This document shows positions 1,175-64,000 of a DNA stretch of 64,000 nucleotides, one piece after another. The stretch is from the NCBI GenBank assembly GCA_905233445.1, contig CAJOEP010000004.1, forward strand, positions 62,001-126,000. Direction: 5' to 3'. The notes under the pieces were generated by a model that saw only the letters and a program-made list of their open reading frames with translations, was not told the DNA's origin and did no database searches. A program made the position numbers and the translations under genes. Source of the DNA: an uncultured Bacteroidales bacterium (GTDB lineage Bacteria > Bacteroidota > Bacteroidia > Bacteroidales > F082). Position 1 is the first letter of the stretch; each line of letters opens with the position of its first letter.

Positions 1175-3180
<2,006 letters not shown>

Positions 3181-3181
<1 letters not shown>

Positions 3182-4482
3182 TGAGATACAGCAATATCGA
3201 CGTTTTGGAGATTAATAAGATTCTGCGTATAGTTAAGGAAAAACAACCTTCACTGTTTAAGCAGATTTGCATCTTTATAGGTCAGCTGTTATATTATACA
3301 TTTGTTATCAGATTCAGATTCAAGGAGTTACCATCAAAATATAAAGGTCTTCTTTTCTTTGGAGTGTCGCTCAACAACCAACGCTCGCTTGAGCCTATAA
3401 TCAAAAATATCGAAAAAGACACCTATATTTATTTGAATAATCATGTTACTGATGTCCACAAACGACGGGCATGGTGGTATAGCATTCCATATCTTTTTGC
3501 TTTGATACGGCTTTACAGGAAATCGGATAAAAACGACAAATTATTGATTATCAAGCATTTTACTACACTTTGGACTACTTATGGTCTTTATAAGGTGGCG
3601 CGTGAAACATTAGAGCATTATAAAGTCAAGGTACTTGTGCTTTCAAACGATCACAACGATATAAACAGATGCTTGATTATTAACGCTAATGCATTGAATA
3701 TCAAGACTGTATATGTTCAACACGCATCTGTTAAAAATGGTTTTCCGCGTCTAGATTTTTCATATTCTTTCCTTGACGGAAAAGAGTCGTTGGATAAATA
3801 TCTGCTTGATGGTCAACCACTTGGTGATGTATATCTTTCAGGAGGAGTCCGTTTTGATTTTCTGTATGACAAAATTCACAAGAGAGAAGGTGCAGTAAAA
3901 AAAATTGGTGTCGCGATTAATATGCTGGATGACTTTGAGAAAATAAAGGTATTGTGTAAGTCATTGAAACACAGTGTTTTTGAAGAAATAATATTGAGAC
4001 CGCATCCACGATATAAAAATCTCGACACTGACTGGCTGCTCTCGAATGGCATCAAAATATCAAGTCCGCAGCAGGAGTCATCGTTCGATTTCATAGCAGG
4101 TATTGACTTTATGATTTCGAATGAGTCGGCGATACATCTCGATGCAGCTATAATGCGATGTCCATCAGTGCTTTATAACATGTCGAGCAACAAGGTCCTC
4201 GATGATTACGGCTTTGTTGGGAAAGGTTTGATAAAAATGGCGGCTGATGAGACGGAATTGATGCAATACATTGAAAATCAAGCTGATATTACTCCGTCAA
4301 AAGATATTGTGAGGTATTATAATGCATCATCCGGAACGCGTCTTGAAGGCAAGCTCGGGCTTACCATTGCACGTTTTGTGGAGATGTTGACTCAAAATGA
4401 AGAGAATGATTTCGACAGAGAATACGGATTTGTGAAAACATCAGAATTTCTTCATGAAATCGATGATTCGTTCGCAGGCTAA
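3181..4482 (+). CDS. Capsule/surface polysaccharide biosynthesis protein, glycosyltransferase-like, uncharacterised
   Basis: ORF in polysaccharide operon; Rossmann-like segments (VYVQHASVKNGFPRLDF, EIILRPHPRYKN). Confidence 0.6.
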
Positions 4483-5592
4483 GCCATCGCCATAAGGGTT
4501 TACGGCATTACTCATAGTTTGGTAATACTCGTTGTTTTCCAATAACATAGATACTTCGTTGACTATTTTATTGTAGTCGGTACCTACTAGTTTCACTGTG
4601 CCTGCCTCAAGAGCTTCGGGGCGTTCGGTGGTTTCGCGCATCACCAAAACCGGTTTACCAAGACCAGGAGCCTCTTCTTGGATGCCGCCACTGTCGGTTA
4701 AGACCAGATGCGACTTTTCCATCATATATACAAAGTTCAGATAATCAAGAGGTTCGATGAAAAATATATTACCCAACTTATTGAGATTCTCGCCAAATAC
4801 TTTGTGGATGGGCTCTCTCACATTAGGATTCAGATGCATAGGGTAAACGAAGTCGACATCAGGATATTTCTTTGTCAAATCGCTTATTGCGGTGCATAAT
4901 CTTATGAAACCTTCGCCGAAATTTTCACGTCGGTGTCCTGTGATTAAAACGAGTTTCCTATTGTAAAGCCTGCCGACGTCGTAACCGTTGTTTCTTATGT
5001 TTTTTTCAATCTTTTCGCAGATTTTTTTGTCGTTTTTAATCTTGTCCACAACAATGTGAAGCGCATCGATAACGGTATTCCCAGTCACTGTAATACATTG
5101 AGCATCAATATTTTCCTTTATCAGATTATCTCTACTCAGTGCTGTTGGTGAGAAATGCATTCTGGCGATGCGTCCTGTTATCTGGCGATTCATCTCTTCG
5201 GGCCACGGACTGTAGATGTTTCCTGTTCTTAAGCCTGCCTCGATGTGTCCAACGGTTATCTGCTTGTAAAACGCTGCTAATGCGGCCGCCGTTGATGTGG
5301 TTGTGTCGCCATGTACAAGCACTATGTCTGGATTAGTCTCGTTGAGAACATCGCGCATTCCTGTCAAAACACGTGATGTGATGTCGTATAAATCCTGACT
5401 TTTCTGCATGATGTTTAAATCATAGTCAGGTTTTATATCGAAGATATCCAATACCTGGTCGAGCATTTCTCGATGCTGTGCCGTTACGCATACAACTGTC
5501 TGAAACTCAGGATGTTGCTTCAGTTTCAAAACCAAAGGAGCCATCTTGATTGCCTCTGGGCGAGTTCCAAAAACAAGCAGTATCTTTTTCAT
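4441..5592 (-). CDS. wecB: UDP-N-acetylglucosamine 2-epimerase (non-hydrolysing)
   Basis: FGTRPEAIKMAPLV, VHGDTTTSTAAALAAFY, HIEAGLRTGN, LTDSGGIQEEAPGLGKPVLVMRETTERPE. Confidence 0.95.
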   Translation of the reverse strand: MKKILLVFGTRPEAIKMAPLVLKLKQHPEFQTVVCVTAQHREMLDQVLDIFDIKPDYDLNIMQKSQDLYDITSRVLTGMRDVLNETNPDIVLVHGDTTTSTAAALAAFYKQITVGHIEAGLRTGNIYSPWPEEMNRQITGRIARMHFSPTALSRDNLIKENIDAQCITVTGNTVIDALHIVVDKIKNDKKICEKIEKNIRNNGYDVGRLYNRKLVLITGHRRENFGEGFIRLCTAISDLTKKYPDVDFVYPMHLNPNVREPIHKVFGENLNKLGNIFFIEPLDYLNFVYMMEKSHLVLTDSGGIQEEAPGLGKPVLVMRETTERPEALEAGTVKLVGTDYNKIVNEVSMLLENNEYYQTMSNAVNPYGDGLACERIIDFMKKF

Positions 5593-6806
5593 ATCTTCTT
5601 AAATGTTCCGCAGAAATCCAACACAATGACATCTTTTCTGTAGTTCAGTTCAGCAAATTCTTTATGATTCACAAGGAAAACTACAATATCTGCATTGTCG
5701 TATGCTTTTTTGTAATCGGTGAGTGGCAGTTCGTCGTGACTTTTCACATTAGGTTCCACGACCATTATCTCAGCGTTGTCGCACGAATGCATGACATTGA
5801 AAGTGATAGCTTTTGCTGGCGATTCACGCAGGTCGTCGATGTTTGGTTTGAATGCTATTCCCATCATCGCGACCTTGGGCTTGCGTTTGTTTTTCAATTC
5901 AAACTCAAGAATGCTGTTCTTCACCTTCTCGGCGCACCACAGGGCTTTGTAATTGTTTATTTCCCTTGCTTTTGCAATGATTTTCGCTTCCTGTGGAAAT
6001 TCGGCGGTGATGAAATAAGGGTCAACGGCTATGCAGTGGCCACCTACGCCGCATCCTGGCTGTAAAATATTCACTCTAGGATGCTTGTTTGCCAGATTTA
6101 TCAGCTCCCACACGTTGATGCCGGCTTTGTCGCAAATCATAGACAACTCATTGGCAAAGGCTATTTGAACGTCGCGAGATGAGTTTTCGGTGAGTTTACA
6201 CATCTCGGCTGTTCGGCTGTTTGTGGAATGCAGATTGCCTTTTACAAAAATCTTATAAAACTCCTTGGCTTTCTCAGTTGATGCCGCGTCGATGCCTCCG
6301 ATAACACGGTCGTTGTTCTCCAGCTCGTAAATGACATTGCCTGGTAACACACGTTCCGGACAATAAGCAATGTAGATATTTCCTTGAAGCTCAGGTCTTT
6401 GCGAGAAAATTATGCCTGTCATTTTCTCTGTCGTGCCGACAGGAGAGGTCGATTCTATTACAAATAAGTCACCTTTTTTTAAGAAAGGAATGACCATTTT
6501 TGTCGCCGATTCGACGTATGTGATATCGGGTTCGTGGTTGCCTTTGAATGGAGTAGGAACAACGATGAAATAAGCGTCGCAAGTCTGTGGCTCGGTGTAT
6601 GCCTTGAATTTCTTCGATGCTATGACTTCTTTTAACAGCTGTTCCATGCCAGGCTCCACGATGTGCAGCCTTCCTTGGTTGGTGCTGGATACAACATTTT
6701 TGTTGATATCTACACCGACCACATCGATGCCGTGTTTGGCAGCGATGATAGCCGTCGGGAGACCGATGTAACCTAATCCCATGAAACAAGCTCTCATACT
6801 ATTCAA
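5589..6806 (-). CDS. wecC: UDP-N-acetyl-D-mannosamine dehydrogenase
   Basis: GLGYIGLPTA Rossmann, STSPVGTTEKM, GVGGHCIAVDPYF, GIAFKPNIDDLRESPA. Confidence 0.93.
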   Translation of the reverse strand: MNSMRACFMGLGYIGLPTAIIAAKHGIDVVGVDINKNVVSSTNQGRLHIVEPGMEQLLKEVIASKKFKAYTEPQTCDAYFIVVPTPFKGNHEPDITYVESATKMVIPFLKKGDLFVIESTSPVGTTEKMTGIIFSQRPELQGNIYIAYCPERVLPGNVIYELENNDRVIGGIDAASTEKAKEFYKIFVKGNLHSTNSRTAEMCKLTENSSRDVQIAFANELSMICDKAGINVWELINLANKHPRVNILQPGCGVGGHCIAVDPYFITAEFPQEAKIIAKAREINNYKALWCAEKVKNSILEFELKNKRKPKVAMMGIAFKPNIDDLRESPAKAITFNVMHSCDNAEIMVVEPNVKSHDELPLTDYKKAYDNADIVVFLVNHKEFAELNYRKDVIVLDFCGTFKKI

Positions 6807-6809
6807 TTT

Positions 6810-7706
6810 TTATAAAGCGTTAGCGCCGCCAACAATCTCGATAATCTCATTGGTGATTGCTCCTTGACGGGCTTTGTTATACGACAGATTCAATTCTTTC
6901 AGCAGTTCGCCGGCATTGTCGGTGGCTTTGGTCATCGAAACCATGCGGGCACCGTGTTCGGATGTGAAACTGTCAAGCAAAATTTTATAAACCTGTAGCT
7001 TTAATGAATTGGGTATCAATGCGTTGAGAATCTCGTCTTTGGAAGGTTGGAAGATATATTCAGTTTCTTCAACATTATTGTCTTCTTTTTCAACTTGATT
7101 TTCACTGACTATCGGCAAGAACTGCTCTTTTACCAAAATCTGTGTGCCAGCATTCTTGAACTGATTGTAAATAAACACGATACGGTCATATTTCTCATCC
7201 TTGAATTCCTGCATAAGCCTTTCGGCGAAAGCTACGGTGTTCTCGTATGACAGTTTGTCGAGCAATTCGTTTTCGTTGCCTGCCAAACGATATTTTCTGA
7301 ACCTCAATGTCTCCTCAATCTTCTTGCTGATGCAGAGAATATCGACATTACCTTTTTCATATTGAACATTGAAATCTTCATTCAAAGTCTTCAATGTCTC
7401 GCGTAACACATTGACGTTGAACACTCCGCACAGTCCTTTGTTGGATGCAACGGGAATAAGAAGTATCTTTTCGTCTTCAGGATTTTCCTTGTGGATTTTG
7501 GCATAAACGCCTTCTGTCGAGGTCTTGAGCGACGATGAAAGGTTCTGCATAATCTCTTGAAGCTTGGAAGCATACGGGCGCAGGGCCACAATGGTCGATT
7601 GCGACTTACGCAGCTTCGATGCCGACACCATCTTCATCGCCGAAGTGATCTGCATCGTCGAGTTTACCGAGTTGATTCGTGTCCTAACTTCCTTGAGATT
7701 TGCCAT
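6810..7706 (-). CDS. atpG: ATP synthase F1 subunit gamma
   Basis: N-terminal RINSVNSTMQITSAMKMVSASKLRK; C-terminal YNKARQGAITNEIIEIVGGANAL. Confidence 0.95.
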   Translation of the reverse strand: MANLKEVRTRINSVNSTMQITSAMKMVSASKLRKSQSTIVALRPYASKLQEIMQNLSSSLKTSTEGVYAKIHKENPEDEKILLIPVASNKGLCGVFNVNVLRETLKTLNEDFNVQYEKGNVDILCISKKIEETLRFRKYRLAGNENELLDKLSYENTVAFAERLMQEFKDEKYDRIVFIYNQFKNAGTQILVKEQFLPIVSENQVEKEDNNVEETEYIFQPSKDEILNALIPNSLKLQVYKILLDSFTSEHGARMVSMTKATDNAGELLKELNLSYNKARQGAITNEIIEIVGGANAL

Positions 7707-7711
7707 AATAC

Positions 7712-9301
7712 TTAGTCTTTCTTAATCATTCCAGCGATTACTTCTTCAGCGGTTTTGTTTAAGACGACACGTTCGTTATCGCCATAATTTCCGGTACGCA
7801 GAGCGTCCATCGTTGCTTTTTGTGTGCTGTTGAGCAGTGTCAGATAGCGTTTTTGGAACTCAGCCACCTGGTTTGGCTGAATCTTTCTCAAAAGGTTATT
7901 CACTCCGCAGTGGATGATAGCCACCTCTTCTTCTACGCGCAATGGTGACGACTGCGGCTGAATCAGTATCTGCACGTTGCGGCGGCCTTTGTCGAGCACG
8001 GCTTGTGTGGCTGCGTCGAGGTCGGAGCCGAATTTCGAGAACGCTTCGAGTTCGCGGAACTGCGCCTGGTCGAGTTTCAGGGTTCCTGCCACCTTTTTCA
8101 TTGACTTAATCTGTGCCTTACCTCCGACACGCGACACTGAGATACCCACGTTGATGGCCGGACGGATACCGGCGTTGAAGAGGTTGGTCTCCAGGAATAT
8201 CTGTCCGTCGGTGATGGAGATTACGTTGGTCGGGATGTATGCCGACACGTCGCCGGCTTGTGTCTCGATGATTGGCAGTGCTGTCAGTGATCCGCCGCCC
8301 TTCACCTTGCCTTTGAGGCTTGCCGGGAGGTCGTTCATCCTTGCCGCAATCTCGTCGTTGTTGATGATTTTTGCCGCTCTTTCAAGTAACCTTGAGTGGA
8401 GATAGAATACATCGCCAGGATATGCCTCACGTCCTGGCGGGCGGCGGAGCAGCAACGAGACTTCACGGTATGCAACGGCTTGTTTCGAGAGGTCGTCGTA
8501 GATGATGAGAGCAGCGCGACCCGTGTCGCGGAAATACTCGCCGATGGCGGCGCCTGCAAACGGTGCGTAATATTGCATTGCAGCAGCGTCGGAAGCAGTG
8601 GCGGCCACCACAGTGGTATATGGCATAGCCCCATGATCCTCAAGGCTTTGCACTATGTTGGCGACAGTTGAGCCTTTCTGTCCTATTGCCACGTAGATAC
8701 AATAAACAGGCTCGCCTTTGTCGTAGAATTCTTTTTGGTTGATGATGGTGTCAATAGCGATTGCGGTCTTGCCAGTCTGGCGGTCGCCGATGATAAGCTC
8801 ACGTTGTCCGCGTCCAATCGGAATCATGGCGTCGATGGCCTTGATGCCGGTCTGAAGAGGCTCGTCAACGGGTTTGCGGTAGATGACGCCGGGAGCTTTG
8901 CGTTCGAGAGGCATCTCCACCGTCTCGCCTTTTATTTCGCCCTTGCCGTCGATAGGCTGTCCGAGGGTGTTGATGACGCGTCCGAGCAGTCCTTCGCCCA
9001 CTTTCACCGAAGCGATGCGGTGTGTGCAGACCACGGTGTCGCCCTCGTTGATGTTGCCGGCTTCGCTCAGAAGCACCACGCCGACGTTGTCTTCCTCGAG
9101 GTTGAGCGCGATGCCCATGGCACCCGTCTTCTCAAACTCCACAAGTTCGCCGGCCTCCACGTCACGCATGCCATATACGCGAGCCACACCGTCGCCAACA
9201 TTGAGCACAGTGCCTTTCACATCAAGCGACGCCTCGTTCTCGAAGTTCGTGAGCTCGTCAAGCAAAATCGCTGAAACCTCAGCTGGTTTTATTGTTGCCA
9301 T
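7712..9301 (-). CDS. atpA: ATP synthase F1 subunit alpha
   Basis: [19 protein letters not shown] Walker [24 protein letters not shown]. Confidence 0.97.
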
Positions 9302-16188: not shown

Positions 16189-17115
16189 CTATAGCACAAT
16201 ATCGTCGTATTTTACCACAACATCCAAGCCTTTTTCATTAAAATACTCTTTAACCTCGTTTTCAGAAAGCTCCGTAGCCGCTAAGAAGAAGTCACCGCCC
16301 CATGCACCGAGTGACTTGATAACTCCTTGGAAATCAGGATATTGCGCTTTCAATGGCGGCTGTTCCAAAACTCGGCTCATGATGGCCTCGTGACGGGTGA
16401 GAAGGGAGCAAAACTCTTCAAAAGAAGTGACTCTCACCAGGCTCTCGGAAATATTTGAGATCTCAGAGACCTCATAAGAGAAATCCATCGTTTTTGCTCG
16501 CTCTTTAAACGATTTCACTTCTTTTCCAGAACTCTGCTTGTGTCCTTGGTAAACAAAATATAGTTTTTCAGAAAAAGCAGGCTTGAAATCTATTTCCTCA
16601 ACGACAGGCTCGCCGTTTATAAGCTGATAAGTTATTGGTTTTGAAGCTGTTGTGCAGGCGATGTCGTAGCCCGAACCACCCATGGTGCGCCTCAAAAGCT
16701 CGTATGGATTCACGTTTGCCCATTGCGATAGCAACGAAATCAGAGTGGAGCTGCTGCCGAGACCCCATTGCGAGTCGAACTCCAGACGGGTGGTGAAAAA
16801 ATAATCGTTTTTATCTTGTAAGATATTGGGATTCAATAACTTAATCTCTTGAAAAATCTTACAGAGGTTGTCGGCTTTCTCCATGTCGTCGGAGGCATGC
16901 ACCGTAAAGCCGAACTTGCTGAAGATGGCTGCAAACCAGAAACCGCGTGGCGTGTAGGAATCCCAATGTATCATTCCTTCCTGGATGTCGATGGTCTTCA
17001 CCTCGAGCGACTGCCCCAATTTCAATGGCAACGCAAAGGCTTTGGCACCTTGGAGAACAAGGTACTCGCCTGATAAAAGGAATTTACCGTTGGCGTGGAA
17101 TTTATTCATAATCAA
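16189..17115 (-). CDS. GYDIA-family GHMP kinase
   Basis: GGSGYDIACTTA, WGLGSSSTLISLL; ATGA overlap with HMG-CoA reductase gene. Confidence 0.88.
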   Translation of the reverse strand: MIMNKFHANGKFLLSGEYLVLQGAKAFALPLKLGQSLEVKTIDIQEGMIHWDSYTPRGFWFAAIFSKFGFTVHASDDMEKADNLCKIFQEIKLLNPNILQDKNDYFFTTRLEFDSQWGLGSSSTLISLLSQWANVNPYELLRRTMGGSGYDIACTTASKPITYQLINGEPVVEEIDFKPAFSEKLYFVYQGHKQSSGKEVKSFKERAKTMDFSYEVSEISNISESLVRVTSFEEFCSLLTRHEAIMSRVLEQPPLKAQYPDFQGVIKSLGAWGGDFFLAATELSENEVKEYFNEKGLDVVVKYDDIVL

Positions 17116-18428
17116 TGATTACGGAGGAATTCTTCTACTCCGGCGTACGTCACCGTGACATCTTTGAAATGTACTAGAGCCGCGGCTTTCTGTTCGTCGG
17201 TGGCGCCGAGCTGGTTCAGGATGTTGGCAAGGTGCATTTTCATATGGCCCTGCTGTATTCCTTTGGTAGTCAACGACTTGACGGCGGCGTAGTTGTTTGC
17301 CAGTCCCATGGTGGCTGCTATCATCATCAGTTCGGGTGCCGATGGATGTCCCAACAATTCCAATGATTCTTTTGCGAGAGGGTGGAGGCTTGTCAAACCT
17401 CCGATAGTGCCGAGCGCGATTGGCACTTCAAGCCAGAACTTGAACATCCCGTCTTTGATTTCGCACGAACTCAGCGATTCGTAATGTCCGTTGCGTGAGG
17501 CGTAAGCATGACCTGCTGCCTCTGTCGCGCGGAAGTCGTTGCCGGTGGCGATGACCACAGCGTCGATGCCGTTGTATATACCTTTGTTATGTGTTGTCGC
17601 ACGATATTCGTCGATGTGCGCAATATCGACCGCCTTTTTGAATTTCTCTGCAAATCCCTGACCGTCAAGGTGTTCGTCAACGCCATCGAGGTCATAAACT
17701 GGACATTCTACCCACACTTTCACGCGGCAGTTAGGGGTGTAGTTCGACAAAATCGCCATCACGATTTCGACATTTTCGCCGCGGCGCAGGAAATAATCCT
17801 GCAGGGTGTGTCCAAATGTCTCGAGGCATGAGTTGATGAAGTTAGCGCCCATCGAGTCGCAGGTGTTGAATGTGACGCGCAACTGATAGTAGTTGTCGAG
17901 CTTGTTGGTAAAGTCAACTAATTGAATATCAAGGATTCCGCCGCCGCGTTTCTCCATCTTGACGGTAATGTCTTTGGTGGAATTACGTAACACGATTTCA
18001 ATCTCGGGCATGAGGCTTTTTAGCGTCTCTTTGTCGCCTTTATAGCAGAAATGTAGTTGTCCAACCTTCTGAACGTCAATTACTTCTGAGTGGAATCCGC
18101 CACGGTCGCCCCAGAATTTCGCCGCCGCCGATGCCGCTGCCACTACGCTGCTCTCCTCGATGACCATCGGCACCATGTAAATCTTGCCGTTAATCAAAAT
18201 GTTGGGGGAGATACCATAAGGTATATGGAAATTAGAAATGGTGTTCTCGCTGAACTCGTCAAACTGCTTCTGCTTCTCACTGTCGGAATACCAAAAGCCT
18301 TTCAAAAGGGCAATAAATTCCCCCGGATTCTCAATATATTCTGAAACGGCCTTTAATTTGTCCTCTTTCAGAAGTTTCGAAAATCCTGCTTTGATGCGGT
18401 CGCGCTTCCTGGGTTTGTTTTCTTCCAT
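17112..18428 (-). CDS. mvaA: Hydroxymethylglutaryl-CoA reductase (class II/degradative type); start re-assigned to MEENK
   Basis: DSMGANFINSCLE, ATGNDFRATEAAGHAYA, LGTIGGLTSLHPLAKESLELLG. Confidence 0.9.
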   Translation of the reverse strand: MEENKPRKRDRIKAGFSKLLKEDKLKAVSEYIENPGEFIALLKGFWYSDSEKQKQFDEFSENTISNFHIPYGISPNILINGKIYMVPMVIEESSVVAAASAAAKFWGDRGGFHSEVIDVQKVGQLHFCYKGDKETLKSLMPEIEIVLRNSTKDITVKMEKRGGGILDIQLVDFTNKLDNYYQLRVTFNTCDSMGANFINSCLETFGHTLQDYFLRRGENVEIVMAILSNYTPNCRVKVWVECPVYDLDGVDEHLDGQGFAEKFKKAVDIAHIDEYRATTHNKGIYNGIDAVVIATGNDFRATEAAGHAYASRNGHYESLSSCEIKDGMFKFWLEVPIALGTIGGLTSLHPLAKESLELLGHPSAPELMMIAATMGLANNYAAVKSLTTKGIQQGHMKMHLANILNQLGATDEQKAAALVHFKDVTVTYAGVEEFLRNH

Positions 18429-54688: not shown

Positions 54689-54994
54689 ATGACACAGAAA
54701 ACCCTGATATCGCAACTTTCGCCCCATCTTTTTTGGGACATCGACATCAACGATTTTGATGCCGAGAGGAATTCTGCGCAGTTGATTCAGAGGGTTTTGG
54801 AGTGGGGTGAACTTGAAGATTGGAGACTAATATATAGTTTTTATGGATTAGAGCGTATTGTAAGTGATTGTAAATCATTACGGACGCTCAATCCTAAGGC
54901 TTTATCGTTTGTTTGCGCCATTTCGGATACTAAAAAAGAGGATTATCGATGCTATACTATGAGACAATACACCCAGCAACATTGGAGCTATTAA
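54689..54994 (+). CDS. DUF6922-like small protein (putative AbiEi-position partner)
   Basis: LSPHLFWDIDINDFD...LIQRVLEWGELEDW; overlaps AbiEii-like ORF. Confidence 0.7.
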   Translation: MTQKTLISQLSPHLFWDIDINDFDAERNSAQLIQRVLEWGELEDWRLIYSFYGLERIVSDCKSLRTLNPKALSFVCAISDTKKEDYRCYTMRQYTQQHWSY

Positions 54995-55569
54995 AAAAAT
55001 TGGCTTCACAAACAGAATTGCACGGGATGCGTCTTGTAGGAGGCACATCACTTGCTCTTCAGTATGGTCATCGTCAGTCGGTTGATCTGGATTTCTTTGG
55101 AAAATTGGGTGTTTCTCAGGAAGAAATCATTGAAATGGCAAGAAGTATTGGTGATTTCAAACTTTATAACAAGACCAAATACATTCTTCAATTTATTTTG
55201 AATAACGTCAGAATTGACGTTGTAGATTATGCCAGTTACGAATGGATTGACGAGCTAATAGTTGAAAATGCTATAGTTCTTGCTTCTCCCAAAGACATTG
55301 CAGCATTGAAAATCAACGCTATTGAAGGTCGAGGAACAAAAAAAGATTTCATTGATGTTTTTGAACTTTTGAAGCATTATGAATTATCTGAAATCCTTGA
55401 TTTTTACAGGCAAAAATACCCGGATTACTCCATATTTCAAGCATTATTGAGCCTAACATATTTCGACGATGCTGAATCCCAGGCAATGCCGGTAATGTTT
55501 ACTTCTGAATCGTGGGATGAGATGAAGGAGAAGATTCGAGAAGAGGTGAGGAAGTATCAGGGGAAATAG
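54949..55569 (+). CDS. AbiEii/AbiGii-type nucleotidyltransferase toxin-like
   Basis: RLVGGTSLALQYGHRQSVDLDFFG NTase motif, ASPKDIAALKINAIEGRGTKKDFIDVFELL. Confidence 0.85.
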   Translation: MLYYETIHPATLELLKKLASQTELHGMRLVGGTSLALQYGHRQSVDLDFFGKLGVSQEEIIEMARSIGDFKLYNKTKYILQFILNNVRIDVVDYASYEWIDELIVENAIVLASPKDIAALKINAIEGRGTKKDFIDVFELLKHYELSEILDFYRQKYPDYSIFQALLSLTYFDDAESQAMPVMFTSESWDEMKEKIREEVRKYQGK

Positions 55570-55699: not shown

Positions 55700-56776
55700 T
55701 TAGTTTTCTCTGACAAGATTCTGGTTCAGCAATATTCCATTCAACATAGTTGAAATGTATTTTGCAAAATTCTCATCCTGTGAATAAATTCCTATTTCAT
55801 CAGATGAGTATTTGCTTGGGAAAGCTAATACCGCTTTAATACCAGTAGTGTTACCATATTTGACCATCCAACAACTCATCGTGAGGTATTCGTTCAATGG
55901 CACCAGTTTTATTCCGTGTTTTTTGTAGTAATTTGCAACAACTAAACTTATTTCACGATTCATCATCTCGAAATCGTTAAAAGTTATTTTGTGTATGTCT
56001 TTTTTAAGGTATTTTTCTTTGATTTTTTGAATGTCTTTACACATGTCTTTTGCAACATCTGCGCCTTGTGATGTCTCGTTTTCTCCAAAATTGATTAATC
56101 CTGTACTAAGATATCCGTTTTCTCCATCAATGCTTTCTTCGAACTTTTTAAAATCTTTGTTAACAGTTGTTTTGAAATATTTGTCACATAATTCATATTC
56201 TTTCTTCCATATAGTTTGCAGTTTAGTGTCCTCGTCCTTTTGTGTTATTGTTTTTATAATACTATCACATTCCTTGTTCATTAAAGCAATATTACCACTG
56301 CTTATATGCTCATTTTTTATCATATTGTGAAATATATCCATCGCTATTGGCACAATTTGATGCTCATAGTTATAATACGCTATTGTAACGGATCCACCTC
56401 GCATTGAATGGTTAAACAGTTTCTTGTTCATTTCGTAAAACTCATTGGGCTTGCTCTTGAAACCATAATAAAGAACATCTTCAAAAATGATTATTGTGTC
56501 GGTTGGGTTAAGGTCTTCAAACAACAGACCAATATCTTCGATATAGTTTGGAAATATGCCCAAATAGCGAGTCGACAATCCTTGCTCAATCTTGATCAAT
56601 TTATCAATAGACTCTTGAAGTTGCTTGTCTTGTTCGGAATCGTGATAAACATCATAGGCAAAACAAAGCACTGCAAACAGCATACCAACGGCAGCTGACT
56701 TAATGAATGTAATCAGAAGTTTTACAACTTTGTGGCGCTTAAGTCTATGTGACAGGCCATCTTTATTGTTATCCAT
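55700..56776 (-). CDS. Uncharacterised single-TM protein, last gene of tubulin/papain operon
   Basis: N-terminal TM (LLITFIKSAAVGMLFAVLCFAYDVY); 19 bp from upstream gene. Confidence 0.55.
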   Translation of the reverse strand: MDNNKDGLSHRLKRHKVVKLLITFIKSAAVGMLFAVLCFAYDVYHDSEQDKQLQESIDKLIKIEQGLSTRYLGIFPNYIEDIGLLFEDLNPTDTIIIFEDVLYYGFKSKPNEFYEMNKKLFNHSMRGGSVTIAYYNYEHQIVPIAMDIFHNMIKNEHISSGNIALMNKECDSIIKTITQKDEDTKLQTIWKKEYELCDKYFKTTVNKDFKKFEESIDGENGYLSTGLINFGENETSQGADVAKDMCKDIQKIKEKYLKKDIHKITFNDFEMMNREISLVVANYYKKHGIKLVPLNEYLTMSCWMVKYGNTTGIKAVLAFPSKYSSDEIGIYSQDENFAKYISTMLNGILLNQNLVREN

Positions 56777-56795
56777 TTATGACTATTTCAATTTG

Positions 56796-59700
56796 TCACT
56801 TTTCAATATCCATGAGTTTTATCTCTTCCAAACCTACATTAACAATCTGTACCATTGTCATCTTGTCTTTGCATGAATATAGTACCGATGCCGGTGTCAT
56901 AGTGGCACTAAAATACTGTTTATAATCGTTTAACCAAGATTGCTTTTCATCGTTATTATCCCAATGTACAAACAACACAGACGACGGCTCGCAGGCGACA
57001 TTCAGTTGGAGGAATACCTTTGACGCATTTTCCAGAATACTGAATATTTCCTTATGCTGTCCTGAAGTTGTATCATAAAGATAATCGTATGTTTTTTTCT
57101 TCAACCAATAAGATATAACAGAGAAATCGTTTATATAATCGAACAGCCAGTCTTTTGTGGTGTCTTTCATATAGTATTTCCAATCCACAATTGCTTTCTC
57201 AGCTTTTTCTTTAGATGAAAAATCCAAAGTGTCGTTGTCGAAATAGTTATAGAGATTTAAGTTTCGCGTTATATCAGCCTTGTTGTTTTCAAAAAACTCA
57301 TCAAGTTTTGGTATTGACAACAATGGAATAAAAGGAATCTTGCTATTGATTTGCATTGCCTTCACATTGTCAGACTCATTTTCATACCATAATTTCAGAT
57401 TACCCCAGTAACCGTCGAAAGCATTATATATTCCCATCATTGTTTTTCTCAATTTGAGGAAATTGTCGATAAAATGCCCAGCGATGCGGCTGTTTATCGC
57501 CTTGAGATTTAGCTCAGCTTCAAGACGCTTTTTGTTGCGGGCGTATTTCTCAATCTCATCGTTAAGTTCCTCTTCCTTGTTCCTGATGTGAGTCTTGTAA
57601 TTACTATAGAACCATACCAAAACTGCAGCGCTCAAAGGAATCATACCGTATAAAAATCTCAATATCCATGTAATAATTACATTGATATTATCAATTATTG
57701 CATTTGCTGTTTCATTTGCTTGTGTCGCACCGATCTTGTACTTGACATATAACATTACAATCAATAAGACTAATAATCCAATTGCTGTTAATATGGAAAT
57801 CTTAACAGGTCTGCGTTTTTTTCTCTTAAACTCTTCAAGTTTTTCTGCTTTAGATGAACGCAAATCATTGACTTTTGAGCCTATATCGTCAATTTCCTGC
57901 TGCAATCGTTCGGATGTACGTTTCAGGATTTCAGTGCGTTTAGGTGCTGTCCCAAGATTTTGAATGAGCTTTAGATATTGGCTGTTTATGGTTTTGTACC
58001 TGTTGACATATTCCGACAGGTCATACTTCATCTCACTGATAAGATTCTGTATGATTTGTGCTTCGATTGCGGAGTCGCTTTGGTTAAACTGTACAATAGT
58101 TGAGTTTTTGCATCCCACCACTTTGATTTCGGTTTTGCATAATTGTGATATAATGCAAGCTCCATTAACCAATTGGGTATCTCCTACATAAGAATACGGT
58201 ATATAACAATAGCCGTTAATTCCAAAGTCTTTTCCCCAGGAGTTTCTGACTATGAATATACGTTCGTCGTCGCTGTATCCGCAAACAACCATTGCGTGAC
58301 GGTGGTTCTTTTTGTCACCATTCCCTTCTTTGATTTCCTGGTCTGACGGACGGCAGACGAATCCGTTAACGGGGTCGAATGAATCATATAGATTAAACGA
58401 TACAGCCACAGGGAAGCCGTCTTCAACCGCTGATTTGATAGCTTCTATTGATAGTTCAACATTCATTGCTTCCGCAACCATGTTGTTTTTGGCGTTTTCG
58501 TATGCAACGTCAGAGGGCTTTCTGTCGAAAACAGCATCGTCGTAAGGGCAGTCACTCTCCGAACAGATACCCAAAGTCTCCAAGCTTTTTATGCAATAAT
58601 AAAAACTGCTGCCGTTGTCTTTTTGCACAGATGCGTTTCCGTCAAGGTCTCTGGCATTATAATAAAGGAAGCTTTCGCTTAAATCATATTCGAGTTTCTT
58701 TTCCTTGTTTAGGATATATTCGTATATTCCAACCATAGAAAATGCCGAACACGAGCCCTGCTGTCCCTGGTTCTTGACGGGAGTGAAACTTGGACGTAAA
58801 TCAACGCTTTTTTTTGTAACAGTATGTGGTTGATATGTCTTTTCTAATGGAGTCTCCTCAATGTCACTTTTCAGCAAGCGAAAAGTCTGTCCTTTGTAAA
58901 CAAAACCGTTTTCAGTTAGGCGTTTTTCTTTCTCTTCACTTGATTTGATGCAACCCTCGAGTTGTCCTAGCAGTTCTTCCTTCTTCCTGATATCTGCTGT
59001 TGTTTCGCGGATTTTTGCTTTCAAAGACTTCAGCTCGTCGACAGGCAGATACACGTTACTATTTTCATCGACAGGTGTGTTCAACGGTCCTGGAGTTATT
59101 GTCTCCTTGCCAGTTTCTTCGTTTTTCGTTCTTGTTATCAGTTTGTTATTCTCATTGATAAAGAAATTAGCCGGATCTTTTGCCAAATCATCAAGAGTGT
59201 CATATTCATAGCTGAAAAGTTCACCGGAGAGCATCTCATTGTCTTCTCCAACAAGCATCGACATGATTCCCAATTTGTCAGGCAAAGACATGTTGTCATC
59301 ACTGATATATGATTTCATGTCTTTCTCAATGGCATCGAATCTTTCAACCATTTTGGGGACTATTATAGCGGCAATTTCATCTTGCGATTTGTTCGCTTCA
59401 ATCAATGGCAGAACCTCTTGGTTGAAAAATTCGCTGTAAACTTTAAGATGGTTTTGGACATGTTTATGCTGCTGGTAAGAAACTTTCTGTATGTCAACGG
59501 ATTTTTGTTGCACACCTTCACGCTCCATGAGGTAAAGATAAGTTCTGTTCAGCAGATACTGCACGAAATAATACTTGTCGAAATCAACGAAAGATACGCC
59601 GATTGCCGTGACGGGTTTGTTGTCATTAATATCAAGATTTGCATTAAATATATCATTATAACATTCAATATCAAGCATGGTAAGTTGGCAAATTACCTGC

Positions 59701-60362
59701 GTAATACCCTCGAAATCAAGATTAAGTGCGCGATTGTCAGAGTTACTGTTTTGCAATACGACAAAATGTGACAGCACAGGGTTGTCATTCTTGTAAGCCA
59801 CAAGTTCTTTAACCGTTTCCTGTGTCTGCTTTCTGAGTTTGGTGAATTGCGATTTCAAGTCATCCAATTTGTCACTTGTAGTCAGCAAATGCGCCAAATC
59901 AGAAGTAAATCCATATACGTCAACAACAAACCTTTGGTCAAGGTTTTTAACAATATCGATGATTTTTTTAACACTGCTGCAACTCTGTCCATTATATAGT
60001 GGCAAATATAAAATCAACAGCAAATCGTCTTCGAAGTCTGAGTTGATGGCAGTTAGAGTTCTGTTGTGCAACCGTGTGAAATAGTCTTTAAGATATTCTG
60101 ACTGACCATCAGGTCCTATTGTTTCTTCAACAGACAAAGCGGCATCATATTCGTCCTTAAAATCTCCAACGAAAACGTTATCGGATTTTTTTACCTCGGC
60201 TTGAACAGATATAATGCTAATTGCCCCATTATGTTCCTCGTTCCAAACAAAACTTTTGTGGTATGATGTTGTATCACCACCATACTTCATTAGGCATTTT
60301 TCTAATTCAATAGGCAGTGCACCAAATGCACTGCCTATGAAAATGTTTATTGAATGTCTCAT
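56796..60362 (-). CDS. Large protein with papain-like (C1A) cysteine protease domain, coiled coils and two TM segments
   Basis: SVDLRPSFTPVKNQGQQGSCSAFS, NHRHAMVVCGYSDDERIFIVRNSWGKDFGINGYCYIPYSY; two adjacent TMs. Confidence 0.88.
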   Translation of the reverse strand: MRHSINIFIGSAFGALPIELEKCLMKYGGDTTSYHKSFVWNEEHNGAISIISVQAEVKKSDNVFVGDFKDEYDAALSVEETIGPDGQSEYLKDYFTRLHNRTLTAINSDFEDDLLLILYLPLYNGQSCSSVKKIIDIVKNLDQRFVVDVYGFTSDLAHLLTTSDKLDDLKSQFTKLRKQTQETVKELVAYKNDNPVLSHFVVLQNSNSDNRALNLDFEGITQVICQLTMLDIECYNDIFNANLDINDNKPVTAIGVSFVDFDKYYFVQYLLNRTYLYLMEREGVQQKSVDIQKVSYQQHKHVQNHLKVYSEFFNQEVLPLIEANKSQDEIAAIIVPKMVERFDAIEKDMKSYISDDNMSLPDKLGIMSMLVGEDNEMLSGELFSYEYDTLDDLAKDPANFFINENNKLITRTKNEETGKETITPGPLNTPVDENSNVYLPVDELKSLKAKIRETTADIRKKEELLGQLEGCIKSSEEKEKRLTENGFVYKGQTFRLLKSDIEETPLEKTYQPHTVTKKSVDLRPSFTPVKNQGQQGSCSAFSMVGIYEYILNKEKKLEYDLSESFLYYNARDLDGNASVQKDNGSSFYYCIKSLETLGICSESDCPYDDAVFDRKPSDVAYENAKNNMVAEAMNVELSIEAIKSAVEDGFPVAVSFNLYDSFDPVNGFVCRPSDQEIKEGNGDKKNHRHAMVVCGYSDDERIFIVRNSWGKDFGINGYCYIPYSYVGDTQLVNGACIISQLCKTEIKVVGCKNSTIVQFNQSDSAIEAQIIQNLISEMKYDLSEYVNRYKTINSQYLKLIQNLGTAPKRTEILKRTSERLQQEIDDIGSKVNDLRSSKAEKLEEFKRKKRRPVKISILTAIGLLVLLIVMLYVKYKIGATQANETANAIIDNINVIITWILRFLYGMIPLSAAVLVWFYSNYKTHIRNKEEELNDEIEKYARNKKRLEAELNLKAINSRIAGHFIDNFLKLRKTMMGIYNAFDGYWGNLKLWYENESDNVKAMQINSKIPFIPLLSIPKLDEFFENNKADITRNLNLYNYFDNDTLDFSSKEKAEKAIVDWKYYMKDTTKDWLFDYINDFSVISYWLKKKTYDYLYDTTSGQHKEIFSILENASKVFLQLNVACEPSSVLFVHWDNNDEKQSWLNDYKQYFSATMTPASVLYSCKDKMTMVQIVNVGLEEIKLMDIEK

Positions 60363-63196
60363 TTCAATTTGTCTGATACATAAGTTAATTCATCGGTTAA
60401 AAGTCTGTTGACACCTGCATAAGCCACTTTGTTGATAGTGTCTAACTTTAAGCCAACCTGTGAATAATTGTCAAAATAATTGTTGCGAACATCCTCTAAC
60501 AACTGTTCGAATCCATCAAGATTGTGGCGTTTTCTGTCTTCCCATTCTTCGAGATAGTCGTCTTTTATATCTTTGATTTTCTTGCTGAATTCCTCAAATG
60601 CTTTGTCGCGCCAATTATCGGCAAGCTTAATCCAGCCTTTTGTCGTAGCGTGGTTTTTCTTGCTCTTGTCGTAATAAAAATAGGTGCTGTTTTCATTCTT
60701 GATTTTTTCGAGAATCAAACCCTTAACCCATAACTCAAGGCTTTCATCCTGTGATGTTTTCTTTGATGGGGTGAGTTTGAATTGCGATAGCTGCATGTCG
60801 CGTTCCATGTGTGCGTCTATATGGAAACTGACATCATTTTTTGTCTTGTACTTCTGAACGTATGAATTCACAGAGTTTATAACATATGGTGGGAAAGAAT
60901 AGAACAAGTGGTAAATGATAATGCGGTTTTTCATTCCAGTTGACACATAATTTACCTTATTGGCAATCTCATCGCCAGTAAATGTTTTCTCAAACTGTCC
61001 ACTAATTGCAGAATTGTCTTTGTTTTCAACACCCACGTAGTAGTTTTCGGCAGGATCCATTTCTCTCAATCCGTCAAGAGCTAAGCCGTTATAATCAAAC
61101 AATATCTGTGACTTATCCTTTAACTGTTTCATGATGAAATCGAACTGGTCAGTTTCATTTTTTTCATCGTTAGCCTTCAACTCATCTAGAACAGATTCAA
61201 GCGATTTGTTTGTCCAGTTTTTACACTTGTTAAGTGTGTGAGTATAATCCATTAATAATAATTTGACATCCTTGTCGGTCTTAACATCGAAATCGTCTAT
61301 TGTGTGGTTTATTTTCTTAATAAACTCGTCCATTCTTATGTCATCTTTGTTTATGGTGACCGAACGAGTATAGCGGTCAGACAGGTCAATCTGGAATAGA
61401 GAATTGCTGCTGGTCACATTTTGAAGCATAGCTAAATCATCAGCAAAAGAGGCATCAACGGCTTTAAGTCTGTCAGATATTTTTACTGCCTTATTTCTGT
61501 AGTTTTGCATATCGACTTTTAACATGTTGAAGAATACTATAGCTTCTTTGCGACGTGCGAGTTCGATCTTATGTTTTGTGTATAAAATCACTTTGTCTTG
61601 TATCTCATCGGCTTTTTCACGCTGTTTTCTAGATTTGCCTATTGCTTTTATACCAGTTAGCGCATTTATTGCCTTGAGATCACTAAGTGCTGTCTTTATC
61701 TTTTCCTCATCATTTTGTATCAATAATGTAAACTCGTCACTTTCTTCATTCATTTCTTTTAGGAACAATTGTACTTGTGAGTCGATTTCGGTCATTACAG
61801 CCAAAGCACCACCAACGCCACACTCGTCGTTCATGAGTTTATGATACAAATTCTTGAATGATTGCTCGACTTTTTCCGACAACATCTTTCGATTTTCCTC
61901 CATGTCCTTGGTTCTGACTTGGCCTTCAACATACGAATTGACGTTTTGAATATTGAAACTCAGATAATCGCTTTCATCAATTTCAAACAATCCGCGTTTG
62001 TCGTTTGGAGATTTGATAAAATCAATAACATCGTCCTTGTCATGTTCCCTAATCGCCACTTCATCAATCCATGCATTTGCTTTTCCATTGGCGTCAGTGC
62101 ATGTGTTCAATAAATCAAGGATAATCATTTTTGCGGCTTTTATAGCATAGACTTCACCGACGTTTTCTCCTCTGAACACCAATTCGCTGATACCCATACC
62201 AACGCCCCAAGCTTCCTTGTCATAAATTGCACGTTGTTCGTTGTCTTTGCATACATTGTCCAAAGCGCTGCCGACAGCAGAGTCAACACATCCGGCATTT
62301 GTCACCAATGCCAGGCTGATAACGTCCGTGAGTTGGTCGATTTTATCATAACTCATGCCTTGCTTGTTGACACCGTCAATTAATGTTACTGCGTCAAACG
62401 GATAGGGGTTGGTGATGAACAAATCCTTATCTGGTTCATACCCCTGATATTTCAATTTGATTTTGTCTCTACGTGTACCAGACATCAGCCAGTCGAGATC
62501 CAAAAGTGCGCCGTATGCGTTTGGTTTTACACGAGGTGTCTGATTTTCGCCAAGGTCGTTCTCAAATATTCCGGCGAGCATGGCGTAACCCATAATTTTG
62601 ACATTCTCAGATCTGGCAGCATCCCTTGCTATATATGCCACATCAATAAATGTACCGCTTCCAGTGCCACCGCAAATGGAAAAAACAATATGGATTTCAA
62701 AACTGCTTCCTGATTCAATTTCATATTTTTTATTATCTTGATTCCTTGCATTTGTTATATCTATGATGGCCTGTTTTATTGCGGCATTTATCTGTTTCGC
62801 ATTCGAAATAAGAACAAAACGGCCATTTGAACGAATCTGGCCGGCTCCGGCATTTCTTAGAGTGGCAATTCCTTTGAGGTTTTGTTGATTCTGCGGCATC
62901 CAAGAGTACAGCTCTTCCTTGTAATACTCATAAAGTCTGTTTGGATTGTCAATCTTCAACTGTACCTGCTCGTTTTTGCTCAAGCACATTTTTTCGTTTT
63001 CAATAAGACCTTTTTTGTTGACATGGGCATTCACTTCTTTTGTGAATTCCTGCATGTCAGTGTCAATTCCAAGGAAACGTATTGACGGAGGGATCTCCCC
63101 ATATGTTTCCTCAAACATTTTCTTTGTGCGAATAAGAGTTTTTACACCTGTGCCGCCTAAACCTATGTAAAGGCGTTTGCTGATTTTTGTTGCCAT
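60359..63196 (-). CDS. Tubulin_2/FtsZ-like GTPase with long C-terminal extension
   Basis: YIGLGGTGVKTLIRTKKMF, RFLGIDTDMQEF, VFSICGGTGSGTFIDVAYIARDAA. Confidence 0.88.
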   Translation of the reverse strand: MATKISKRLYIGLGGTGVKTLIRTKKMFEETYGEIPPSIRFLGIDTDMQEFTKEVNAHVNKKGLIENEKMCLSKNEQVQLKIDNPNRLYEYYKEELYSWMPQNQQNLKGIATLRNAGAGQIRSNGRFVLISNAKQINAAIKQAIIDITNARNQDNKKYEIESGSSFEIHIVFSICGGTGSGTFIDVAYIARDAARSENVKIMGYAMLAGIFENDLGENQTPRVKPNAYGALLDLDWLMSGTRRDKIKLKYQGYEPDKDLFITNPYPFDAVTLIDGVNKQGMSYDKIDQLTDVISLALVTNAGCVDSAVGSALDNVCKDNEQRAIYDKEAWGVGMGISELVFRGENVGEVYAIKAAKMIILDLLNTCTDANGKANAWIDEVAIREHDKDDVIDFIKSPNDKRGLFEIDESDYLSFNIQNVNSYVEGQVRTKDMEENRKMLSEKVEQSFKNLYHKLMNDECGVGGALAVMTEIDSQVQLFLKEMNEESDEFTLLIQNDEEKIKTALSDLKAINALTGIKAIGKSRKQREKADEIQDKVILYTKHKIELARRKEAIVFFNMLKVDMQNYRNKAVKISDRLKAVDASFADDLAMLQNVTSSNSLFQIDLSDRYTRSVTINKDDIRMDEFIKKINHTIDDFDVKTDKDVKLLLMDYTHTLNKCKNWTNKSLESVLDELKANDEKNETDQFDFIMKQLKDKSQILFDYNGLALDGLREMDPAENYYVGVENKDNSAISGQFEKTFTGDEIANKVNYVSTGMKNRIIIYHLFYSFPPYVINSVNSYVQKYKTKNDVSFHIDAHMERDMQLSQFKLTPSKKTSQDESLELWVKGLILEKIKNENSTYFYYDKSKKNHATTKGWIKLADNWRDKAFEEFSKKIKDIKDDYLEEWEDRKRHNLDGFEQLLEDVRNNYFDNYSQVGLKLDTINKVAYAGVNRLLTDELTYVSDKLK

Positions 63197-63213
63197 ATTA
63201 TTAATTTTTTAAT

Positions 63214-64000
63214 TTAACTTACGATGATTTGAACACTTTGTTTTAAACTGTTGGTAATTTTATATTCGACTTCTCTGTCCAAGGTCAGTTCGTATGGTTT
63301 TATAATATATTTGTCATCAAGTTTAATTCTGACAGTCTTGCTTGAAGGCTTGATTAATACAGCCCCATCACACCACATGTCATTGACACTATATAAGATC
63401 TCTCCTGTAAATAATTTATTCAAAAGGCTTTGCTTTTTATATTTGTTGTCACATAACACTATCATTCTGTATTTGTTTTTGGATTTATGCAAATAATAAG
63501 CTCCGTTAATGTCAATTGCCACTTTAATCTTTGGATAATACACTCTTTTAATAATCAAAAACCATAAAACAAGGATACATATTATTAATATACCTAAAAA
63601 CGATAAAATTGAATCAACCCAAACTCGCAGTTTGTTAGATACATGTCTGACTTTGACTACAATTGGTGTTTGAGTATCCTTATCTTCATCGAGTAATAAA
63701 GTTTTGTCTGATATTGTACAATTATTGATTCTGTCGATTCCAGGATTTTCGACCATTTTTAAAACATAATGATAATCGCGATCAATGTCCTCAGAATAAA
63801 GCGTTTTAGCCGTTAAAACAATCCTAATGCTAATTTGTTGGTGAAATTCCTCGTCACAATTCTCCAATCTAATACATATTGTATTATTTTCGGATTTTAC
63901 TCCATCAACATAAAGTTCCACATCTTCAGGAGATGTTTTGGCGTATTTATTATCAGGCATCCTCTGATATAGTTCAAACACCAAATTGCCATTCAATTCC
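63214..64000 (-). CDS. Single-TM protein, N-terminus likely cut by window edge
   Basis: TM (ILSFLGILIICILVLWFLIIKRVYY); ORF runs to window end. Confidence 0.6.
   Translation of the reverse strand, partial: ELNGNLVFELYQRMPDNKYAKTSPEDVELYVDGVKSENNTICIRLENCDEEFHQQISIRIVLTAKTLYSEDIDRDYHYVLKMVENPGIDRINNCTISDKTLLLDEDKDTQTPIVVKVRHVSNKLRVWVDSILSFLGILIICILVLWFLIIKRVYYPKIKVAIDINGAYYLHKSKNKYRMIVLCDNKYKKQSLLNKLFTGEILYSVNDMWCDGAVLIKPSSKTVRIKLDDKYIIKPYELTLDREVEYKITNSLKQSVQIIVS

Follow-up and report, generated by a model that had tools for sequence, protein, structure and literature searches.

Do a tubulin-like GTPase and a membrane-anchored papain-type protease that are encoded side by side form one system, and what might such a system do? 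The question is raised by a minus-strand operon at the end of a 64,000-nucleotide stretch of DNA from an uncultured Bacteroidales bacterium (assembly GCA_905233445.1, contig CAJOEP010000004.1; this whole stretch is called the window here), in which a first-pass annotation made from the letters alone had seen a candidate undescribed system. We found that the pairing of a Tubulin_2 GTPase gene with the gene of a membrane-anchored papain-type protease holds up and is conserved across Bacteroidales; it recurs well beyond this genome, both protein signatures hold in profile searches, and we found no description that clearly covers the same operon. At a probability of about 0.5, judged from the sequences, we read the locus as a branch of the FtsZl1/Tubulin_2 systems specific to Bacteroidales, in which a four-gene relay would span the inner membrane and tubulin-like assembly would gate a membrane-tethered protease, a switched envelope-stress or conflict response being likelier than housekeeping.

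The open reading frame (ORF) listing returned four minus-strand ORFs at 63214-64000, 60359-63196, 56796-60362 and 55700-56776, with coordinates and strand as first annotated. As the window covers bases 62001-126000 of a contig of 151,625 bases, the operon could be read past the window to its end. Reading past position 64000 completed the truncated upstream gene, termed the adaptor here, at 323 aa and revealed an additional vWA gene at window-equivalent 64189-65271, separated from the adaptor gene by three bases. The originally proposed set of four genes therefore stands for the Tubulin_2 gene, the papain protein (PAP) gene and the adaptor, whereas the last ORF (ORF1) is an accessory gene and the vWA gene takes its place in the core. 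The core order is vWA, adaptor, Tubulin_2 and PAP, codirectional and tightly spaced, with the following features.

64189-65271 (window-equivalent, outside the window), minus strand: core gene 1, vWA protein, 360 aa, with a DVTMS motif.
63214..64000, complete to window-equivalent 64185, minus strand: core gene 2, predicted adaptor, 323 aa; the L071 homologue is fused to the vWA protein.
60359..63196, minus strand: core gene 3, Tubulin_2 (FtsZl1-type) GTPase, 945 aa with a long helical C-terminal part, assigned by PF13809, GTP-loop alignment and fold search.
62126..63172, minus strand: Tubulin_2 domain, residues 9-357, with the GLGGTG and GGTGSG loops.
56796..60362, minus strand: core gene 4, PAP, 1188 aa, comprising N-domain, C1A papain domain, coiled coil, transmembrane (TM) hairpin and C-domain.
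59013..60362, minus strand: PAP N-terminal alpha/beta domain, residues 1-450, without known family; AlphaFold2 (AF2) predicted local distance difference test (pLDDT) about 80.
58143..58811, minus strand: PAP C1A papain-type protease domain, residues 518-740, assigned by PF00112, an 18-sequence alignment and xylellain 3ois.
57609..57800, minus strand: PAP TM hairpin, residues 855-873 and 900-918, from hydropathy, present across the alignment.
55700..56776, minus strand: ORF1, accessory gene 5, with one N-terminal TM segment and a predicted periplasmic domain of ~320 aa; homologues only in L069 and L072.

The ORF at 60359-63196 is a Tubulin_2 GTPase of the FtsZl1 type with intact GTP loops. It matches PF13809 over residues 9-357 and profile positions 1-353 of 356 (E 7e-56; 190 bits at a cut-off of 27), and the glycines of the loops G-x-GG-x-G and GGTGxG, already noticed as GLGGTG and GGTGSG (G12, G14-G17, G176-G179 and G181), are invariant in 16 homologues. 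A fold search with the structure model returned mostly tubulins among its PDB matches, TubZ among them, and helices are predicted for the C-terminal part at residues 416-592 and beyond. GTP hydrolysis and filament formation are predicted from these features.

PAP likewise carries an intact C1A active site, so that proteolysis is predicted. PF00112 (Peptidase_C1) matches residues 518-723 of the ORF at 56796-60362 (E 1e-19), and Q532, C538, H689, N707 and the SWG motif are invariant in 18 papain proteins, the catalytic residues being conserved also in the diverged L072. The AF2 model reached a pLDDT of 78, and its protease domain is nearest to xylellain (3ois, E 3e-16) among solved structures. 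With xylellain and the C1A papain-like proteases PAP thus shares the protease fold and the catalytic residues; it differs in having neither an N-terminal secretion signal nor a classical prodomain, and in that its papain domain lies within a predicted cytosolic, membrane-anchored protein of 1188 aa. Topology was called here and below from hydropathy, TM positions and flanking charge. Since the hydrophobic hairpin at 855-873/900-918 leaves both PAP termini predicted inside, the protease would face the cytosol, in agreement with the side first proposed.

The two upstream genes would supply the periplasmic half. The vWA protein is predicted to be exported, and its DVTMS corresponds to the vWA MIDAS motif, which is found as D-x-[ST]-x-S in 12/12 vWA proteins checked. 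The window protein does not reach the Pfam VWA cut-off, and among its homologues only that of L071 does, a natural fusion in which vWA protein and adaptor form a single 627-aa ORF. The adaptor begins with a lipoprotein-type signal, LTLISC, encoded outside the window, and has a single TM segment at residues 193-211 (about 63553-63609) between a periplasmic domain and a predicted cytosolic C-terminal domain; its sequence features make it a predicted trans-membrane adaptor. Neither the adaptor nor ORF1 matched a Pfam family. A small helix-turn-helix ORF lies on the same strand 128 bases upstream of the vWA gene (L002:11401-11763, minus strand; window-equivalent 65400-65762) and is a possible regulator.

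How widely is this arrangement kept? One scan of the genome collection gave 17 loci with full-length PAP homologues of about 30-34% identity, all in Bacteroidales, which rules out a one-genome accident; hosts include Bacteroides sp. 519, Prevotellaceae, Paludibacteraceae and uncultured gut lineages. The core order was found in 14/14 loci whose contigs reach far enough, while L057, L058 and L062 end at contig edges and agree as far as they go. L072, from the same genus as the window, is a diverged sister operon with the same four genes, and the Tubulin_2-PAP pair was seen in two further genomes. Because the same order recurs in other Bacteroidales, the four-gene arrangement is not due to chance. 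Presence is patchy: PAP was detected in 6/100 genomes of the window's genus, and among 398 sampled genomes of the phylum those other than the window genome gave matches to the papain domain only and no full-length PAP, so that PAP in its full-length form did not prove widespread outside Bacteroidales. Carriage on plasmids or phages was also dismissed, plasmids giving C1-domain matches only and phage records one weak Tubulin_2 match. The ATGA overlap of the Tubulin_2 and PAP genes at 60359-60362 is present in the window genome but is not conserved in relatives, where gaps of +2 to +88 bp prevail and L072 has a 17 bp overlap; translational coupling was therefore dropped as a hallmark. All four core genes show dN/dS of 0.02-0.20 in close pairs. 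Pairwise distances of Tubulin_2 and PAP correlate with r = 0.95, a value from related sequences and not an independent-sample statistic, and by these sequence comparisons the tubulin and protease genes are inherited together and co-diverge.

Is the system new? The claim that it is undescribed is only partly true, because its frame and related systems are covered in the literature. Makarova and Koonin (2010, PMC2875224) described operons in which a protein of FtsZ-like family 1 (FtsZl1), the same family as Pfam Tubulin_2, is encoded with vWA and membrane proteins, and proposed membrane remodelling; Kaur et al. (2020, PMC7159879) class tubulin+vWA+GTPase systems among conflict systems, likewise NucA-peptidase systems. 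With the FtsZl1 operons the present one has in common a Tubulin_2 protein with a helical C-terminal part, a MIDAS vWA protein and lineage-specific membrane proteins; it differs in having a further, membrane-anchored partner that carries a conserved C1A protease, and the frequent, non-obligatory FtsZl1 partners (protein kinase, P-loop GTPase, OmpA) are absent among the profiled core and adjacent genes. The GAP1-N2 GTPase-centric conflict systems share a tubulin-domain protein, an extracellular vWA protein, membrane proteins and a proposed regulated NTP-dependent assembly, whereas their TRAFAC-type GTPase and GAP1 have no counterpart among the profiled core and immediate neighbour proteins here.

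Other Tubulin_2 loci from the same genus and phylum also have vWA and membrane genes with differing partners, such as OmpA and a periplasmic binding domain in L112. In another lineage the genes of L117 (3923-12511) include one for a vWA-like membrane protein with a DISKS motif and one for a protein kinase-HSP70 protein, a set fitting the kinase/HSP70 themes published for FtsZl1 and GTPase-centric systems; nearby, at 16372-17157, a NucA-type nuclease is encoded. L019 of the window's genus carries a multi-TM transglutaminase-like protein (2182-5130, minus strand; PF04473, PF01841; papain-like fold) near its Tubulin_2 gene. As this was the only papain-fold-like membrane partner among the other loci inspected, protease coupling was rejected as a general FtsZl1 trait. 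Since these loci keep the vWA and membrane genes and differ in partners, FtsZl1 is the common frame, and PAP is the mark of one of its branches. The words protease, papain and peptidase are absent from the main text of PMC2875224, the supplementary tables lying outside this check, and a papain-bearing version is not mentioned in the consulted text of PMC7159879, its supplementary files again lying outside. Literature searches for a papain and Tubulin_2 description, which did not cover the 2010 and 2020 supplementary files, found none. The frame is already known, and the papain-bearing branch is new in that it was not found described in the literature searched.

What, then, might the operon do? 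In the relay that we favour, the periplasmic vWA/adaptor pair would detect a ligand or damage to the envelope, the adaptor would relay the signal across the membrane, and on the cytosolic side the Tubulin_2 GTPase would change its state of assembly. This change would cluster or free the protease, which would cut its target; optional fifth genes, namely ORF1 and, in another clade, an exported NucA-type nuclease, may be accessory parts or effectors. Protease, patchy presence, optional nuclease and some toxin-antitoxin, restriction-modification (R-M), Fic or AbiEii neighbours lean towards a switched response; defence, stress response and membrane remodelling are each unproven as its role. The following weighs against the gated relay as described: confidence in the Tubulin_2 model is low (pLDDT 65), PADLOC returned no match for Tubulin_2, PAP or the truncated adaptor (the vWA protein was left out of that search), and the N-terminus of the nuclease encoded downstream in the other clade resembles a signal. 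As the nuclease looks exported, a cytosolic protease would miss it after export.

The same nuclease bears on whether the operon is an anti-phage defence system proper, in which sensing of an invader activates the protease and the latter causes death or arrest of the cell or switches on an effector, a possibility that we hold tentatively and rate on the unlikely side. A NucA-type nuclease of 256-261 aa begins 3-7 bases after the PAP gene in four loci (L059, L062, L063 and L065), with PF01223 matches of E 1e-54 and 5e-49 in the two tested, and lies further downstream in L068. Tuck et al. (2025, PMC12799240) reported protease-activated nucleases in defence, and the conflict role that Kaur et al. 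assign to tubulin+vWA GTPase and NucA-peptidase systems points the same way. The likeness to both the systems of Tuck et al. and NucA-peptidase systems consists in a protease gene adjoining a nuclease gene in one clade; however, the nuclease of Tuck et al. has a metallo-beta-lactamase (MBL) fold and is partnered by trypsin or caspase, whereas here a papain-type protease is fused to a membrane protein and the nuclease is NucA-type, apparently exported and clade-specific. The nuclease-bearing loci fall into one clade of the PAP tree together with L064 and L066, both without nuclease, and the single PF01223 gene of the window genome is located on another contig, the window operon having none. The window, L056, L060 and L064 have toxin-antitoxin, type I R-M, Fic or AbiEii genes in the neighbourhood of the operon, but such neighbours were not seen in many loci and were counted without a background comparison, and no core gene gave a convincing PADLOC match.

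Unlikely, in our estimate, is a membrane remodelling machine, in which Tubulin_2 filaments serve the shaping or trafficking of membrane, with the protease merely processing or turning over components. It would explain why the gene frame is that of the FtsZl1 operons (PMC2875224) and why all partners are membrane-linked; the role proposed in 2010 is, however, itself a context prediction, and a strictly conserved protease with a very patchy distribution suits a switched accessory system better. That the genes are mere neighbours with independent functions is highly improbable: although functional linkage is inferred from gene order and co-divergence only, full-length PAP is never without an adjoining Tubulin_2 gene where flank is available, vWA protein and adaptor are fused in L071, and Tubulin_2 and PAP distances are correlated.

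Within the favoured relay, the PAP N-terminal domain invites a more specific idea. It has no relative in Pfam, the PDB or by hhalign, and its structure search against a viral library gave phage tubulin/FtsZ at a probability of 0.97-0.99 with a weak E of about 0.06 and a root-mean-square deviation of about 8; C1 proteases and coiled coils precede these matches, and a GDSL-lipase match has similar probability. A degenerate tubulin-like fold is possible on this modelled structure. Comparison by hhalign with Tubulin_2 and tubulin gave no similarity, so homology to Tubulin_2 by sequence was abandoned, as was homology of the N- or C-terminal PAP regions to the partners encoded at other FtsZl1 loci, for which hhalign gave no support either. 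We regard it as doubtful, and quite unlikely as a whole, that the domain is a second, degenerate tubulin pairing with the Tubulin_2 GTPase as alpha- and beta-tubulin do, and that GTP-driven co-assembly at the membrane would cluster the papain domains and turn on proteolysis, giving a filament-activated protease triggered from the periplasm.

The surroundings of the core vary. ORF1 has one TM segment (20-38), with its N-terminus predicted inside and its C-terminal domain outside, so that the outer genes of the original set each have one TM segment as first noted; it gave only a weak PADLOC match (E 0.0045) and, being found in three loci only (the window, L069 and L072), was dropped as a core gene. 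Between the papain gene and the ORF1 homologue of L072 lies a gene for an 883-aa FtsK/HerA-like ATPase (5124-7775, minus strand; PF01580 E 2e-20; PADLOC SspH and mad8 matches), in a region that also encodes a 326-aa TM protein and a 94-aa protein. The neighbouring pair first annotated as AbiE-like contains an AbiEii homologue, but its partner is a DUF6922 protein (54689-55569, plus strand, overlapping the AbiEii gene) and not AbiEi, and the pair lies on the opposite, convergent strand and is not co-transcribed. Downstream of the papain gene, L060 (14065-15765) carries genes for a zeta-toxin-like kinase and for a toxin-antitoxin pair of the nucleotidyltransferase/HepT type. In L064 (17607-21211) genes for a type I methylase and specificity protein lie one gene beyond the downstream end of the operon. 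Three loci, L062 (8715-11356), L065 (15031-17381) and L068 (13530-16177), have a His-Xaa-Ser radical-SAM peptide cassette (HxsA-like, HxsD, HxsB) after the operon.

FtsZl1/Tubulin_2 proteins have been known since 2010, and the papers found on them report no experiment and offer context-based guesses at function only. A four-gene version with a catalytic output gives this family a directly measurable activity, proteolysis. If the coupling is true, a tubulin-family GTPase would control a protease, with parallels to the assembly-activated proteases of eukaryotic cell death.

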